In this document: in pieces, positions 9,691-36,569 of the stretch | How the letters are laid out: each line of letters opens with the position of its first letter | Position numbering within the stretch: position 1 is the first letter of the stretch | Source of the DNA: Acidobacteriota bacterium | GTDB lineage: Bacteria; Acidobacteriota; Terriglobia; Terriglobales; Acidobacteriaceae | DNA length: 64,000 nt | Assembly (NCBI GenBank): GCA_013289685.1 | Contig: JABCZL010000003.1 | Location: 124,001-188,000 of the forward strand | Direction of reading: 5' to 3' | The notes under the pieces: model-generated | What the model was told of the DNA's origin: nothing | The model's input: the letters and a program-made list of their open reading frames with translations, nothing else | Databases searched by the model: none | Translations under genes and position numbers: made by a program

Positions 9691-9715
9691 GCGGACGAGA
9701 GTGTCCGCCCCACAC
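9691..9715. repeat. GCGGAC...GTGTCCGC palindrome, copy 1
   Basis: GCGGACGAGAGTGTCCGC followed by CCCACAC. Two more copies, differing at only two to four bases, are at 22741-22765 and inside anmK at 33864-33888. The core GCGGAC/GTCCGC is a perfect 6-base palindrome. This copy lies between paiB and hemD. Confidence 0.8.
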
Positions 9716-15901: not shown

Positions 15902-16009
15902 AACACCCGTGATTGTAAATCTGAGCGGCGACGACTGGGGAAACGAAAATCAAAAACCCACTTCTCGCGCAAGGAACGCGCGAGAAATGGGGCACCCGGA
16001 AAAACCTTT

Positions 16010-16073
16010 AACCACAGAGGGCACAGAGGTATACAGTGGGCTTCCTCGGTGCGCCTCTGTGTCCTCTGTGGTT
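16010..16073. repeat. CCACAGAGG hairpin family, copy 2
   Basis: Arms of 20 bases at 16010-16029 and 16054-16073 pair with one mismatch around a 24-base spacer. It lies just past the end of the GH5-like gene and could serve as that gene's transcription end point. Confidence 0.8.
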
Positions 16074-22740: not shown

Positions 22741-22765
22741 GCGGACAGGAGTGTCCGCTCCACAT
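22741..22765. repeat. GCGGAC...GTGTCCGC palindrome, copy 2
   Basis: GCGGACAGGAGTGTCCGC followed by TCCACAT, nearly the same 25 bases as at 9691 and inside anmK. This copy is intergenic. Confidence 0.8.
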
Positions 22766-29831: not shown

Positions 29832-32534
29832 ATGACCGAGCCGTCCACTCCGCTGATGCGGCAGTATGCCGCGGTCAAAAAAGAACATCCTACCGCGCTC
29901 TTGTTTTTTCGCCTGGGCGATTTCTACGAGCTTTTCTTTGACGATGCGATCGTGGCGGCGAAAGAACTGCAGATCACCCTGACCTCGCGGAATAAAGAAA
30001 AAGGAATCGCAGTGCCCATGTGCGGCGTGCCTTATCACGCGGCGGAGGGATATATCGGGAAGCTGATTCGCAAGGGCTTTAAGGTGGCAATCTGCGAGCA
30101 AATGGAAACCCCAAGCCAGGCGAAGAAACTTGTTCGGCGGGAAGTGACCCGCGTGATGACGCCGGGGACGGCGGCGGATTCGTCGTTGGGGTCAGATGAG
30201 AATAATTTCCTGGCGGCGCTGGCGCAGGTGACCGATCGCACGGGAGAAAATCGAGTGGGATTCGCCGCGCTCGACTTGTCGACGGGGGAATTCCGGGCTA
30301 CGGAATTTTCGGGCGAGGGCGCGATGCGGCGGGTGCAGGAGGAGTTGGAGCAGTTGCGGCCGAAGGAATTGCTGTATGGATCGGCGGCGCCGTTGTTTGA
30401 GAGTGCGGTCGCTCCCAGCAAAGAGCAGCCGAGCTTTGCTCGGCCGGACAGCCGAGGGCGGCCGTCCCCACATGGTTCTTCTCTGAGGACAGCCACCGGA
30501 ACCTGCACCGAGACTCCGCTCGATGACTGGATTTTTGCGCCGGATCATGCGCTGCCGCTGCTGGAGAATCATTTTGGCGTTTTGTCGCTGGAGGGATTTG
30601 GGCTGGCGGGGCGGACGGCGGCTGCGGCAGCCGCGGGCGCGATTCTGTATTACGTGCGGTCGACGCAGCGGGGGTCGCTGGATCATGTCGACCGCATCGG
30701 GTGGTACGAGCGGCAGAGTTGTCTGGTGCTGGATGCGGTGACGGTTCGTAATCTGGAATTGATTGAGCCGCTGTTTGCGGGCACGGATGCGGGCGTTACG
30801 TTATTCCGGTCGATGGATGCCGCGGTCACGCCCATGGGCAAGCGGCTTCTGCGGGCCTGGCTGTTGCGGCCGTCGCTCGATTTGAGCGAGATCCATGCGA
30901 GGCTCGACGCCGTGGAAGCGGGAGTGAAAGAGAGCATCGCGCGGGAGGAGTTGCGGCGGGCTCTCGATGGCGTGCTGGATCTCGAAAGGCTGTTGAGCCG
31001 GGTGACGCTGGAGACAGCGAATCCCCGGGACCTGCTGGCGCTGGCCGCGTCGCTGGGAAAGATTCCGGCGGTCAGAGCGGCGGTAGGCCGGCTCGCGGCT
31101 GAGCGACTGAAGACTCTGCATGGCTCGCTCGACGAACTGGGCGACGTGCGGGAACGAATTGAGCACACCATCGTTTCGGAACCGCCTTTGAGTTTTGCCG
31201 AGGGCGGAGTGGTTGCAGCGGGCGTGGATCGCGACCTTGACGAATTGCGGGAACTCTCGCGCAACAGCAAGCAGGTGCTGGCGCAGATTGAGCAGCGGGA
31301 GCGGGGGCGCACCGGGATTTCCTCGCTGAAGGTAAAGTTCAATTCCGTCTTCGGCTATTACATTGAGGTCTCGAAACCGAACCTGCACCTGGTTCCGCAG
31401 GATTATGAACGGAAGCAGACGCTGGTTGGTGCGGAGCGGTTCAGCACGCCTGAGTTGAAAGAGTACGAGATCAAGATTCTTGACGCGCAGGAAAAAATTG
31501 TCGAGATCGAGCGGGGGCTGTTTACGGAGTTGCGGACGGAGATCGCGGCGGAGGCTAAGCGGATCCGGCAGACTGCGCTGGCGCTGGCGGAGGTGGATGT
31601 GCTCGGGTCCCTGGCGCACATCGCGGCACTGCGCAATTATTGCCGTCCGGCTTTCGTGGAGTCTGCCGACGCGGCCGAGTTGGAGATTATCGAAGGCCGG
31701 CATCCTGTGATCGAGCAGCAGGAAATGGCGGGAGGCAGCGAGCGCTTCGTCCCGAACGATCTTTATTTGAATGGCACCACGCACAACATTATGCTGCTGA
31801 CCGGGCCGAATATGGGCGGGAAATCGACTTACCTCCGGCAGACGGCGCTGATCGTAATTCTGGCGCAAATGGGATCGTTCGTACCCGCACGGTCGGCGCG
31901 GCTGAGCGTGGTGGATCGTGTGTTCACGCGCATTGGGGCGAGCGACAATCTGGCACGCGGACGATCGACCTTCATGGTGGAGATGACGGAGACGGCGGCG
32001 ATCCTGCACACGGCGACAGCGCGGTCGCTCATTTTATTAGATGAGGTAGGCCGCGGCACTTCCACCTATGACGGGTTGGCGATTGCATGGGCTGCGGTGG
32101 AATATCTCCACGCGCGAGTCCGGGCGAAGACTTTGTTTGCCACGCACTATTTTGAGTTAACCGAACTCGCCGAGCAATTGTCGGGCGTGAAGAATTATCA
32201 CGTGTCGGTGAAGGAGACGGGTGGCGGGATTGTGTTCTTGCGGAAAGTCGAGCCAGGGGCGGCGGATCGCAGTTACGGCATCGAAGTGGCGAAGTTGGCG
32301 GGACTGCCGAACGAAGTCGTGGTGCGGGCGCGGGAGGTGCTGGCGGAACACGAATTTGCGGAAGCGCAGGCGACGGCACATCTTTCTCCGGGGGCGACTC
32401 CTCCGCCCACGCAGTTGACGATTTTTACGCCGCTGTCGCAGCCTGTGCTGGAGAAGCTGCGGGAAGTGGATTTGAACCGGATTACTCCGTTAGAAGCTTT
32501 GAATTTGCTGGCGGAGTTGAAGAAAGAAATCTAA
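29832..32534 (+). CDS. mutS: DNA mismatch repair protein MutS
   Basis: Recognises mismatches and starts repair. The mismatch-binding Phe-x-Glu motif is Phe31-Tyr32-Glu33 (LGDFYELFF). The Walker A motif is GPNMGGKST (658-666), with [14 protein letters not shown] and [12 protein letters not shown] behind it. At 900 residues it is slightly long because about residues 191-228 in the connector domain are encoded by a palindromic repeat inserted in frame ([20 protein letters not shown]). The core before ([13 protein letters not shown]) and after ([15 protein letters not shown]) is normal, so the element lies in a loop. The TAA stop lies in a CCACAGAGG repeat. A short tandem repeat carries the ribosome site. 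Confidence 0.97.
30419..30476. repeat. Palindromic repeat translated within mutS
   Basis: The unit runs AAAGAGC, a perfect GCCGAGC-TTT-GCTCGGC hairpin (30428-30444), a spacer, and GGGCGGCCGTCCCCACATG. The same plan occurs at 57187-57261, outside any gene (AAAGAGC, GTCGAGC-TGC-GCTCGAC, ..., GGGCGGCTGTCCCCACATG). An in-frame length lets it be translated. Confidence 0.8.
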
Positions 32535-32562
32535 CCACAGGGGACACAGAGGGGCACAGAGG
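32532..32562. repeat. CCACAGAGG repeat, copy 3, single arm
   Basis: TAACCACAGGGGACACAGAGG and GGCACAGAGG follow the mutS stop, whose TAA is its first three bases. It lies 17 bases before the nagZ start. The second arm is missing. Confidence 0.75.
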
Positions 32563-32579: not shown

Positions 32580-33704
32580 ATGATGGACCGACGCAAGGCT
32601 CGGAGTATTGACGAGATTGGACAACTGCTGATCGTGGGCTTTGACGGCGCAGAGATTACGCCGCAGGTCAGTTCCCTGCTTAAGCGGCTGCAGCCGGCTG
32701 GGGTGATTCTTTTCGCGCGGAATATCAAGAATCCGGAACAGACCTGGCGGTTGCTCCGCGATAGTCAGAAGTGCGTGGCCACGCCGCTGTTCGCCTGCGT
32801 TGATCTGGAGGGCGGGACGGTGGACCGGTTTCGCGATGTGCTTGGGGCCGCGCCTTCGGCGGCGGATGTATTCGTGACTGGCGATCGCAAGCTGTTTCGC
32901 AGGCACGGGGAAATCATCGGCGCAAACTGCCGCGCGCTGGGATTTAACGTCGATTTCGCGCCGGTGCTCGATCTGGCATTCGAGGCGTCACGAAGCGTCA
33001 TGGGGACGCGAGCGGTGGCGGCTGATCCGCGCGAGACGATCACTTACGCGAGGGAGTTTTTGGCGGGGCTTCAGGATGAACGCGTGCTGGGATGCGGCAA
33101 GCACTTTCCTGGTCTCGGCGAGGGCCAACTCGACAGCCATCACCAGCTGCCGGTGATTGAAAAGCCGTTGCAGAGGCTGTGGGCGGAAGACCTGCTTCCC
33201 TACCGGACGCTGCGCCGGCAATTGCCGATGGTGATGATTTCGCATGCGGCGTATCCGCAGGTCACGCGGGATCGAACTCCGGCGTCGCTGTCGAAGGTGT
33301 GGATCACCGACATTCTGCGCAAGAAGATTGGCTACCGTAATCTGATCGTATCGGACGATCTGGAGATGGGCGGCGTGCTGGCGGCTGCGCCGGTCGGCGA
33401 GGCGGGGGTGGACTTTGTGCGGGCGGGAGGCGATTTGTGCCTGATCTGCCATCGGGAGGAATACATTCTTCAGGCGTACGAGGCGCTGCGCAAGACGGCG
33501 GAGCGGGATTCGAAGTTTGCGCGGCGTGTGGCGGAGGCGACGCGGCGTGTGCTGGCGTTTAAGAAAAAACTGGCGAGCAGGAGTACCCGCGGCCCGTCCG
33601 GAGCCACGGTGGAGAAGTTGACGCGGAGGTTGTGGGAGTTTGGGGAGCAAGTAAGGTTGGAGCCTTTCAGCCGTCAGGCGGACAAGCGGCGGTCGCGATC
33701 ATGA
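32580..33704 (+). CDS. nagZ: Beta-N-acetylhexosaminidase NagZ (GH3)
   Basis: Removes N-acetylglucosamine from anhydro-muropeptides in peptidoglycan recycling, normally in the cytoplasm. The family motifs are VDLEGGTVDRFR, GFNVDFAPVLD, GKHFPGLGEGQLDSH with the catalytic Asp185-His187 pair, and the nucleophile in IVSDDLEMGG (Asp259-260). The usual HG in KHFPGHG is LG here. The C-terminal tail past residue 330 is Arg/Lys-rich and probably disordered. Two ATG codons stand together at the start. The stop overlaps the anmK start by ATGA, so the two recycle murein in one operon. Confidence 0.93.
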   Translation: MMDRRKARSIDEIGQLLIVGFDGAEITPQVSSLLKRLQPAGVILFARNIKNPEQTWRLLRDSQKCVATPLFACVDLEGGTVDRFRDVLGAAPSAADVFVTGDRKLFRRHGEIIGANCRALGFNVDFAPVLDLAFEASRSVMGTRAVAADPRETITYAREFLAGLQDERVLGCGKHFPGLGEGQLDSHHQLPVIEKPLQRLWAEDLLPYRTLRRQLPMVMISHAAYPQVTRDRTPASLSKVWITDILRKKIGYRNLIVSDDLEMGGVLAAAPVGEAGVDFVRAGGDLCLICHREEYILQAYEALRKTAERDSKFARRVAEATRRVLAFKKKLASRSTRGPSGATVEKLTRRLWEFGEQVRLEPFSRQADKRRSRS

Positions 33705-34960
33705 GCGCGAAGGCAATGATCGTGGCCGGGGTGATGAGCGGGACCTCGGCGGATGGGATTAATGTCGCGCTGGTGCGAGTGGGCGAGGCGCGCTCTCGCT
33801 CTCGTAAGGCGTCCGCCGCGTCTTCGAGCTTCCGCGAGAAGTCACCTTACACTGCACACATTAGCGGACGGGAGTGTCCGCTCCACACGATCAAACTCTT
33901 GGGACATGCGGAATATTCCTATCCTGCCAAGGTCCGCGCCGCGGTGCTTTCCGCGATGAACGCGACTCGGGCCAGCGTGGCCGAGTTGTCGCGGCTTAAC
34001 TTTTTGCTGGGCGAACTTTACGCCGACGCGGTGCTGGCGACGGAGCGGCAGTTTCGGGTGAAGGCTGAATTGGTCGGCTGCCATGGGCAGACTTTGTACC
34101 ATCAGGGCGAGGCGCAGACATTTCTGGGACAAAGAATTGCCGCGACCTGGCAGTCGGGCGAGGCCGCCGTGATTGCGGCGCGGGTGGGCGTGCCTGTGGT
34201 TTCGGATTTTCGTCCTGCGGATATGGCGGCGGGTGGCAAGGGGGCGCCGCTGGTTCCATATCTTGACTATCTGCTTTTCCGTGACCCGAAGATCGGACGC
34301 ATTGTGCAGAATATTGGAGGCATTGCGAATCTCACGGCGATTCCCGCGGGGGCCGACGCGAGCCGCGTGTTCGCCTTCGATACCGGACCGGGGAACATGG
34401 TGATCGACGCGGTAACCGAGGCTATGTATGGCCGGGCGTTTGATCGCGGTGGGAAGATCGGCGCATCGGGAAAGGTCTTGCCGTCCGTTCTTGACACGAT
34501 GCTGCGGCGCGGCTTCTTCAAGGCGAAACCTCCGAAGACCGCCGGGCGCGAGGAATTCGGGCGGGAATTTGTGGGCGAGTTCTTGCGGCAATGCCGCGGC
34601 GCCCGTAAACAAGATGTTGTCGCGACGGCCACCGCCCTGACGGCGCGGTCGATCGCCGACGCGGTGCAGCGATTCGTCATCCAGAAATCAAGCTCAGCTG
34701 CTAAGACTTCTTTTCGCGAAATGATTCTCTCCGGAGGCGGCGCCAGAAATGCGACTCTTGTCGGCATGCTGGCGGAGAGCCTCGCACCGCTTGGGATCCA
34801 GTTGCGATTCTCGGACGAGTTTGGCTTGCCTTCGGAGGCGAAAGAAGCAGTGGCGTTTGCCGTGCTGGCTTACGAGACATGGAATCGAAGGGCTTCGAAT
34901 GTGCCATCGGCGACGGGCGCGAAACGGGCGGCCGTGCTGGGGAAGATTTCGTATGTGTGA
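33701..34960 (+). CDS. anmK: Anhydro-N-acetylmuramic acid kinase, with in-frame repeat insert
   Basis: Phosphorylates anhydroMurNAc with water cleavage to give MurNAc-6-phosphate, the step after NagZ. Motifs are MSGTSADGI (ATP-binding), GCHGQTLYH, SDFRPADMAAGGKGAPLVP with catalytic Asp169, NIGGIANLT and DTGPGNMVID. The start at 33701 is fixed by the 4-base overlap with nagZ. Between VALVRV and LLGHAEY there is an extra stretch of about 40 residues, rich in Arg and Ser. Its end (HISGRECPLHTI) is encoded by a dispersed GCGGAC palindrome. The core is otherwise intact, so the enzyme is probably active. Confidence 0.95.
   Translation: MSAKAMIVAGVMSGTSADGINVALVRVGEARSRSRKASAASSSFREKSPYTAHISGRECPLHTIKLLGHAEYSYPAKVRAAVLSAMNATRASVAELSRLNFLLGELYADAVLATERQFRVKAELVGCHGQTLYHQGEAQTFLGQRIAATWQSGEAAVIAARVGVPVVSDFRPADMAAGGKGAPLVPYLDYLLFRDPKIGRIVQNIGGIANLTAIPAGADASRVFAFDTGPGNMVIDAVTEAMYGRAFDRGGKIGASGKVLPSVLDTMLRRGFFKAKPPKTAGREEFGREFVGEFLRQCRGARKQDVVATATALTARSIADAVQRFVIQKSSSAAKTSFREMILSGGGARNATLVGMLAESLAPLGIQLRFSDEFGLPSEAKEAVAFAVLAYETWNRRASNVPSATGAKRAAVLGKISYV
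33864..33888. repeat. GCGGAC...GTGTCCGC palindrome inside anmK, copy 3
   Basis: GCGGACGGGAGTGTCCGC followed by TCCACAC, nearly identical to the intergenic copies at 9691 and 22741, but translated here in frame as part of AnmK. Confidence 0.85.
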
Positions 34961-36569
34961 GGATCAGACCTCGGACCGCGGACCTCGGACTTCGGACCTC
35001 AGCCGCCTAGGTCTGCAGTCTGAGGTCCGATGTCGATTCGGCCCCGGAGTTCTCGCGCTGCTTTGCGTGGTCGCCGCGATCGTGCCGCTTCTTGCCTGCT
35101 CAGCGAAGCCCGATCCCAATACGCTGGTCATGATTATCGAGTCGAGCCCGACGAATCTTGATCCGCGGGTGGGGCTCGATGCGTACTCGGCGCGCATTGA
35201 CGCCTTGTTGTTTGATGGACTGGTGACACGCGGTGATCAGCTAAACGTTGTTCCCGGGCTGGCCGAGCGGTGGGAGATTCCCGATCCGCGAACCTATGTT
35301 TTTCATCTTCATCATGGCGTCCGATTTCATGACGGCCGTGGCCTGACCTCCCGCGATGTGAAGTGGACGCTCGATTCTCTGCTCCAAGGCAGGATTCGAA
35401 GCACCAAGACGGCGAATTATCGCTTTGTCGACCACATTGATGCGCCGGACGATTTCACCGTGATCTTTCATCTGAAGGAACCGGACTCACCTTTGCTGTG
35501 GAACCTGGCCGATGCGGTGATGGGGATTGTGCCGTACGGCAGCGGCGAGGAGATGACGCAGCATCCCATTGGCTCGGGCCCGTTCAAGTTCGTCAGCGCT
35601 GAAATGGACCGCGAGGTTGTCATCGAGCGCAATGACAACTATTGGGGTGCGAAGGCGAAACTAGCGCGGGTACGTTTTACGGTCATTCCTGACGAGACGA
35701 CCGAGGCGCTCGAACTGCGCAAAGGCAGCAGCGATATTGCGATCAACGCGTACCTGACTCCAGATACCATCGCGGTACTGGCGCACGACCCCAATCTGAC
35801 GGTGATGAATGGGCCGGGGACGCGGCTGGCATATCTGGCGTTCAACTTGCGCGACCCGATTCTGAAGGACGCGCGAGTGCGGCAGGCGATTGCTTATGCT
35901 CTTGACCGGCGGCCGATGATCGAGTACTTGTGGCGGGGCGAGGCGACCCCGGCGAGCAGCGTTTTGCCCAAGCAGAGTTGGGCGTACAACGGGGACGTTC
36001 CGGTTTACGACCATGATCCGGAAAAAGCGAAGCAGTTGCTGGATGCGGCGGGTTATCCCGAGAGTAACGGCGTGCGCTTTCACATCACGATGAAGACCTC
36101 GACCGATGCGAACACGCGGTTGATGGTGGCGGTGATGCAGCGGCAGCTGCGCGAAGTGGGGATTGCGCTCGACATCCGCAGCTTTGAGTTCGCCACCTTT
36201 TTTTCCGATGTGACCCACGGCGCGTTTCAGATGTACGGCTTGCGCTGGATCGGGGGGAATGAGGATCCAGACATTTTCGAATACGCGTTTCATTCGGCCA
36301 AGTTTCCACCCAACGGGGCGAATCGCGGCTTTTACTCCAATCCAAAGATCGATGCGCTGATTGACCAGGCGCGGCGCGAAGTCGATCCCGCGGTGCGCAA
36401 GCCGCTGTATGCTGAGGTGCAGCGGATTCTGGCCGAGGACTTGCCTTACATCGACCTGTGGTATCTCGACAACGTTCTGGTGCACACGCGGCGGGTACGG
36501 AACTTGAAACTGAATCCGGCAGGAAACTTCGATTTCCTCCGCACGGCGGAGCTGGAGTCCCGAAACTGA
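34953..36569 (+). CDS. Peptide-type solute-binding lipoprotein (ABC family 5)
   Basis: A periplasmic substrate-binding protein of the OppA/DppA/MppA family. The lipobox is LLAC with lipidated Cys49. The mature part has SSPTNLDPRVGLDAYSA, YVFHLHHGVRFHDG, RNDNYWG and AYALDRRPMI, which are family hallmarks. The start at 34953 is inferred because it overlaps the anmK stop; the first 27 residues (TSDRGPRTSDLSRL) are encoded by a CGGACCTCGGA repeat and lengthen the signal n-region. No permease or ATPase follows. With nagZ and anmK before it, murein peptide binding is a fair guess. Confidence 0.87.
   Translation: MCEDQTSDRGPRTSDLSRLGLQSEVRCRFGPGVLALLCVVAAIVPLLACSAKPDPNTLVMIIESSPTNLDPRVGLDAYSARIDALLFDGLVTRGDQLNVVPGLAERWEIPDPRTYVFHLHHGVRFHDGRGLTSRDVKWTLDSLLQGRIRSTKTANYRFVDHIDAPDDFTVIFHLKEPDSPLLWNLADAVMGIVPYGSGEEMTQHPIGSGPFKFVSAEMDREVVIERNDNYWGAKAKLARVRFTVIPDETTEALELRKGSSDIAINAYLTPDTIAVLAHDPNLTVMNGPGTRLAYLAFNLRDPILKDARVRQAIAYALDRRPMIEYLWRGEATPASSVLPKQSWAYNGDVPVYDHDPEKAKQLLDAAGYPESNGVRFHITMKTSTDANTRLMVAVMQRQLREVGIALDIRSFEFATFFSDVTHGAFQMYGLRWIGGNEDPDIFEYAFHSAKFPPNGANRGFYSNPKIDALIDQARREVDPAVRKPLYAEVQRILAEDLPYIDLWYLDNVLVHTRRVRNLKLNPAGNFDFLRTAELESRN
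34964..35036. repeat. CCTCGGAC...GGTCCGA repeat, translated as leader
   Basis: CAGACCTCGGACCGCGGACCTCGGA, a GGTCTGCAGTCTGAGGTCC partner and CGATGTCG form an imperfect inverted repeat. It is translated as part of the lipoprotein leader. A related GTCGGACCTCGG...GGGCCTCGGA lies at 42791-42821. Confidence 0.7.

Follow-up and report, generated by a model that had tools for sequence, protein, structure and literature searches.

The anhydro-N-acetylmuramic acid kinase (AnmK) encoded in the genome of this Acidobacteriota soil bacterium contains the translation of a GTGG-tagged REP element, and the same loop of the enzyme holds other REPs in related species. We consider it probable (roughly 0.8) that the palindrome found in anmK is a REP copy lodged in a tolerant loop, where it sits passively and where REPs of several families have repeatedly been gained, lost or exchanged. 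The original prediction, made from the letters of the window (the whole 64,000-nucleotide stretch analysed), included neither the identification of the element as a tagged REP nor the other REPs carried by relatives in this loop. Its observation is confirmed and its interpretation is supported. The features are listed in Table 1.

Table 1. Repeat copies and host genes. Positions refer to the window, except where a locus name precedes them
Feature	Position	Strand	Basis or remark
GTGG-tagged REP, GTGTGGAGCGGACACTCCCGTCCGCT on the - strand, translated on + as SGRECPLHT	33863..33888	-	in frame in anmK
Intergenic copy, GCGGACGAGAGTGTCCGC+CCCACAC	9691..9715	-	between called genes
Intergenic copy, GCGGACAGGAGTGTCCGC+TCCACAT	22741..22765	-	between called genes
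anmK, anhydro-N-acetylmuramic acid kinase, 419 aa	33701..34960	+	PF03702, conserved motifs
AnmK variable loop, about residues 29-61	33785..33883	+	loop comparison and AlphaFold
ORF upstream of anmK, putative nagZ (glycoside hydrolase)	32580..33704	+	ORF list; name from sequence reading only
mutS, 900 aa	29832..32534	+	PF00488, PF05192, PF01624, PF05190, PF05188
Translated REP of a second family in mutS, TGTGGGGACGGCCGCCCTCGGCTGTCC on the - strand	30446..30472	-	family-typical hairpin
REP in UvrD	L184:17805-17828		own genome
REP in RNase R (RNB)	L205:17389-17412		own genome
Two REPs in ParB	L200:4431-4578		own genome
REP in pantoate ligase	L181:13066-13090		own genome
REP in TrmFO/GidA	L196:9840-9864		own genome

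The translated repeat and the variable loop of AnmK

The palindrome in anmK, GCGGACGGGAGTGTCCGC, occupies 18 bases (33864-33881), or 20 when a flanking A-T pair is counted, and is followed by a 7-base TCCACAC tail (33882-33888). It had been described as a 25-base palindrome translated inside AnmK. The site, the repeat and the in-frame translation (33864-33888) hold, but the 25 bases consist of the shorter palindrome plus its tail. A Pfam profile scan of the ORF gives 310 bits for PF03702 (cut-off 24, E 3e-92), and the motifs MSGTSADG, CHGQT, DFRPAD, NIGGIAN and DTGPGN of this cell-wall-recycling enzyme are all intact. The gene starts within the end of the upstream ORF, in an ATGA overlap, and the reading of that ORF suggests that it is likely nagZ. 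Short tandem GGACCTCGGACCTCGGACTTC repeats lie directly 3' of anmK, at 34964-35000.

Read on the opposite strand, the family copies are TGTGG[G/A/C]-GCGGACACTCYTGTCCGC. The consensus, TGTGG-N-GCGGACA-CTCC-TGTCCGC, comprises a 7 bp stem, a 4 nt loop and a tag 1 nt away from the hairpin. In GT[AG]G-tagged REPs, GTAG or GTGG lies 5' of a hairpin at a distance of 0-2 nt; the basal stem of this hairpin is perfect over 7-20 nt and its loop spans 2-5 nt (PMC6006769). The tag, stem and loop of the window family all fall within this rule, and the copies are numerous and mainly intergenic, as such REPs are; the anatomy is that of a GT[AG]G-tagged REP/REPIN. The innermost stem pair of the anmK copy is A-C, but the copy has one extra outer A-T pair relative to the consensus. 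Its two intergenic siblings in the window, at 9691 and 22741, were said to differ from it by two to four bases; both exist, and each differs at exactly 2 positions over 25 bases. Three matches occur in the window at up to 3 mismatches, compared with 0.20 expected from shuffles.

The AlphaFold model of AnmK, based on a 29-sequence alignment, has a mean pLDDT of 88.5. Residues 34-57 form the sole segment with a pLDDT below 50; they are flanked by strands 19-29 and 62-73, which are the first two long ones in the protein. An insertion of 40 residues absent from the family core had been claimed. The insert exists and is missing from the AnmK of G006, a genome of the same genus, but it amounts to 29 residues by comparison with that protein (100 versus 71 between anchors), and the loop is about 26 residues longer than that of levoglucosan kinase. 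Approximately nine of the inserted residues (SGRECPLHT) are REP-derived. The 25-28 bases of the repeat are the only part of the insert that matches elsewhere in 1.25 Mb of its own genome; the remainder found no match there, and a second repeat in the upstream part was rejected after the same search returned nothing beyond 14-mers.

We propose that a REP copy landed in frame in this turn at the protein surface. The position, the open frame, the conserved core and the low predicted order suggest that the roughly nine encoded residues are tolerated, with the gene left intact, because the loop carries no conserved residues. Most probably the copy is carried along passively; a Y1 transposase of the HuH type presumably spread it in trans.

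Different REPs in the same loop of related species

Among 398 genomes of the family, 381 yielded an AnmK; 45 of these, the own genome included, belong to the window's genus. A comparison of related enzymes had been suggested, and it reveals that the insert is not present in all orthologues: besides G006, which lacks it, a strict tagged hairpin is found in the loop of 21 of 94 distinct AnmK sequences (at least 60% identity), as against 2 of 1,348 same-length windows elsewhere in the gene. The hairpins are of several kinds. A GGAC stem occurs in the window, L214, L217, L251 and L252, a GGGC stem in L209, L036 and L127, and an ACGGGC stem, read in another frame, in L041, L247, L250, L257 and L258. 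The hairpin of L044 has the plus orientation, and that of L124, judged by eye, seems reversed too. Fifteen strict hairpins share one frame (GQECPxHT or GRGRPRHT) and five are in another (SRPSPH). Even where the core DNA is 86% identical, as between L251 and L257, the loops carry different REPs in different frames.

Since stem sequence, frame and orientation differ among these REPs, there have been several gains or replacements. The presence of different REPs in one loop of related AnmKs thus indicates that the spot repeatedly accepts such elements without the enzyme being broken. On a tree of the AnmK core, presence or absence of the element changes at least 13 times and its state 18 times; as many of the forks are poorly supported, it is uncertain how many events were independent. 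The AnmK loci showed no exact empty site accompanied by a target duplication, and the best pair with and without the element, L229 and L243, differs in more than the REP. Comparing L122 with L255 reveals a 24-base, 8-codon (PALSGAEG) insertion within an existing AnmK hairpin. Such a repeat within a repeat, eight codons reading PALSGAEG / PALSLSKG, lies inside REP hairpins of the L122 AnmK and L285 MutS loops.

The diversity of stems could also have arisen from a single ancestral insertion, altered by mutation in place and by template-switch (quasi-palindrome) correction with no arrival of new REPs. We regard this as unlikely. It would explain why 15 of the 20 strict copies in minus orientation share one frame and a CCACAC or CCACAT tail, and why L229 and the window copy resemble intermediates between stem types. 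Covariation of the stems is also consistent with it: in 12 sequences, 13 cells changed on both sides compared with 5.0 in shuffles, and the score was 0.398 compared with 0.188 shuffled, although these sequences were picked for having hairpins, which inflates the pairing. However, the loop bases change along with the stem type and fit each genome's own families. Moreover, neither the other frame (5 species) nor the opposite orientation (L044, and L124 by eye) is derivable by correction in place. Our preferred reading is that the loop of the relatives gained, lost or swapped REPs with different stems, in two frames and both orientations. The simplest explanation for their recurrence would be that the loop is among the few neutral landing sites in a constrained gene. 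Additionally, a resident REP may attract other REPs or recombine with them.

A further possibility, which we put forward tentatively, is that a REP lodged in the tolerant loop serves as a landing pad that later REP families of the genome overwrite in place, so that the translated REP would track the dominant family. Eight genomes with GGAC-type AnmKs have GGAC/GGGC copy ratios of 0.75-10.6, and seven with GGGC-type AnmKs have ratios of 0.05-0.53, with no overlap (Mann-Whitney p 3e-4); the test covers the common frame only, leaving out the other-frame and plus-orientation loci, and L229 (G344, ratio 7/6) was excluded as ambiguous. Just 2 phylogenetically independent contrasts that lie on branches with good support back the association. 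This ratio does not account for the five other-frame genomes. There, the AnmK element belongs to a third family, which has 23-91 copies in the other-frame genomes (G314 included) versus 5-57 in most frame-mates of that genus. The caution is due to the two contrasts, the exclusion of L229 and the third family of the other-frame genomes.

Copy number, search for a transposase and other coding hosts

The repeat is far more frequent than expected by chance, the point on which the original prediction could have failed. In the genome of 6.85 Mb, CGGACANNNNTGTCCG occurs 86 times versus 1 for the control, and GCGGACRNGAGTGTCCGC has 57 exact copies and 125 matches at up to 2 mismatches, versus 6 for the reversed-pattern control. 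The suggested comparison of coding and intergenic copies was made in 1.25 Mb of the own genome, about half of it chosen around known copies, so that the absolute density is biased upward. There, 49 of 59 copies are intergenic and 10 are coding, though about 81% of the sequence was called coding (by a simple home-made hexamer model in place of a published gene finder). In the same 1.25 Mb, a hairpin follows TGTGGG at 11% of its sites and TGTGGA at 4%, compared with about 1-1.5% for most control tags; the GTAG tag, at 3.6% of sites, is also above controls. Twelve close pairs, 74-143 bp apart, occur among the 59 copies, and in 11 of them, with spacings of 74-142 bp, the tags point outward, the arrangement of REPINs. 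Of 120 genomes sampled across the taxonomic family, 33 contain the repeat family, which is thus represented in 26 of 79 genera; none of the 120 contains the reversed-pattern control. A related, GGAGG-tagged hairpin family (GGAGGGACGGGCGTCTCGCCCGTC) occurs in the genomes G165, G300 and G314. The window also has a second dispersed repeat, of TTAACCACAGAGGACACGGAGG type, with copies at 698-736, 16001-16039 and 32524-32562, the last right at the end of mutS.

The link to a transposase was sought at 34 Y1-transposase loci, 4 from the own genome and 30 from ten relatives. None of them carries the window REP family in its 1.5 kb flanks, so that these loci provide no RAYT link for this family; some of them carry other GTAG hairpins. 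At L006 (contig C20), a Y1 gene lies between GTAG-tagged GCCGGCGTCCCGCCGGC hairpins at 1183-1199 and 1932-1948, and this unit is a probable RAYT/REP of a different family. The missing RAYT would fit a MITE of some other transposon, or a terminator-like element, rather than a RAYT-type REP. The outward pairs do resemble a short MITE, and copies are somewhat enriched where neighbouring genes converge (14 of the 46 intergenic copies that have a called gene on each side, versus 112 convergent gaps among 702). Conversely, 35 of the 59 copies are single, which argues against a MITE, the tag, stem length and loop match the GT[AG]G REP rule (PMC6006769), and in those copies that were displayed the hairpin is not followed by a T-run. 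We thus find this classification rather improbable.

A second repeat family with a coding copy in the window had also been announced, and it is borne out by mutS, which contains a hairpin of the GACAGCC..GGCTGTC family with a CCACA tail. The mutS gene shows a pattern that repeats that of AnmK: within the genus, the insert is found in some species, others have a short loop and still others apparently a REP of another family. The strict detector finds it in 3 of 27 cases versus 1 of 359 control windows; the other mutS copies are decayed and were judged by eye. In addition to the hosts in Table 1, tagged hairpins of the own genome lie in genes for YndJ, a SIS-CBS protein and a beta-lactamase-fold protein, and the coding REPs of this genome are read in several frames across their hosts.

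It is very improbable that selection maintains the hairpin for a role in the mRNA or DNA of anmK, such as protein binding or the control of translation or of mRNA stability: its stability as RNA (-12.7 kcal/mol, z -2.7), the pairing kept across stem changes and the role of REPs elsewhere in mRNA stability count in favor, but many close relatives with an intact anmK lack it, both orientations and several frames are found, like inserts lie in unrelated genes, and Rfam at E up to 1 has no match at the site, so that a known RNA family there was rejected. No function of the AnmK hairpin is indicated.

Relation to known intragenic repeats

GTAG- and GT[AG]G-tagged REPs within genes were described by Di Nocera et al. 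2013 (PMC3733652), who report translated REPs, repair genes as frequent hosts and, in two Xanthomonas species, unlike REPs at approximately the same recB site; inverted-repeat (TIR) transposase genes in Koribacter are also reported there. The elements studied here are similar in being tagged short hairpins, multicopy and mostly intergenic, which occur singly and in opposite-oriented pairs and are in some cases translated in frame, with repair genes (here mutS and uvrD) among their hosts. They differ in the tag, GTGG instead of GTAG, and in the host, Acidobacteriota (Terriglobia). The recB site is a direct precedent for the AnmK loop. In contrast to that case, turnover at the AnmK site extends over many species and involves three or more stem families, in two frames and in either orientation.

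As cited in PMC3733652, the RPE palindromic repeats are inserted in frame in conserved Rickettsia genes and translated. By that account, the two systems share in-frame palindromic insertion and translation in conserved genes; the likeness is one of functional analogy alone, as the RPE is a different sequence family, and the window element encodes only about nine residues and has mostly intergenic copies. REPINs consist of two inverted REPs with outward tags and a variable spacer, each tag being 5' of its hairpin (PMC3116915, PMC8266576), and the pairs of the window family share all these features. Unlike REP-RAYT systems, no cognate RAYT was found beside this family at the 34 Y1 loci. One TnpAREP still cleaves when the tag is changed to GTGG, although the cleavage sites are then altered or used less efficiently (PMC8266576).

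The window case is a new and unusually well documented intragenic REP in Acidobacteriota, with far more shared-site cases than the recB report. In the literature searched, recurrent REP turnover at a single loop in several genera appears not to have been described previously. Peptides of this loop such as GRGRPRHT, GQECPRHT, SRPSPH and PALSGAEG are to be read as translated mobile DNA and not as conserved protein motifs. Dozens of species, some carrying a REP of one family or another in this one enzyme loop and some carrying none, constitute a clean natural series for studying the arrival, persistence and replacement of REPs in coding DNA.
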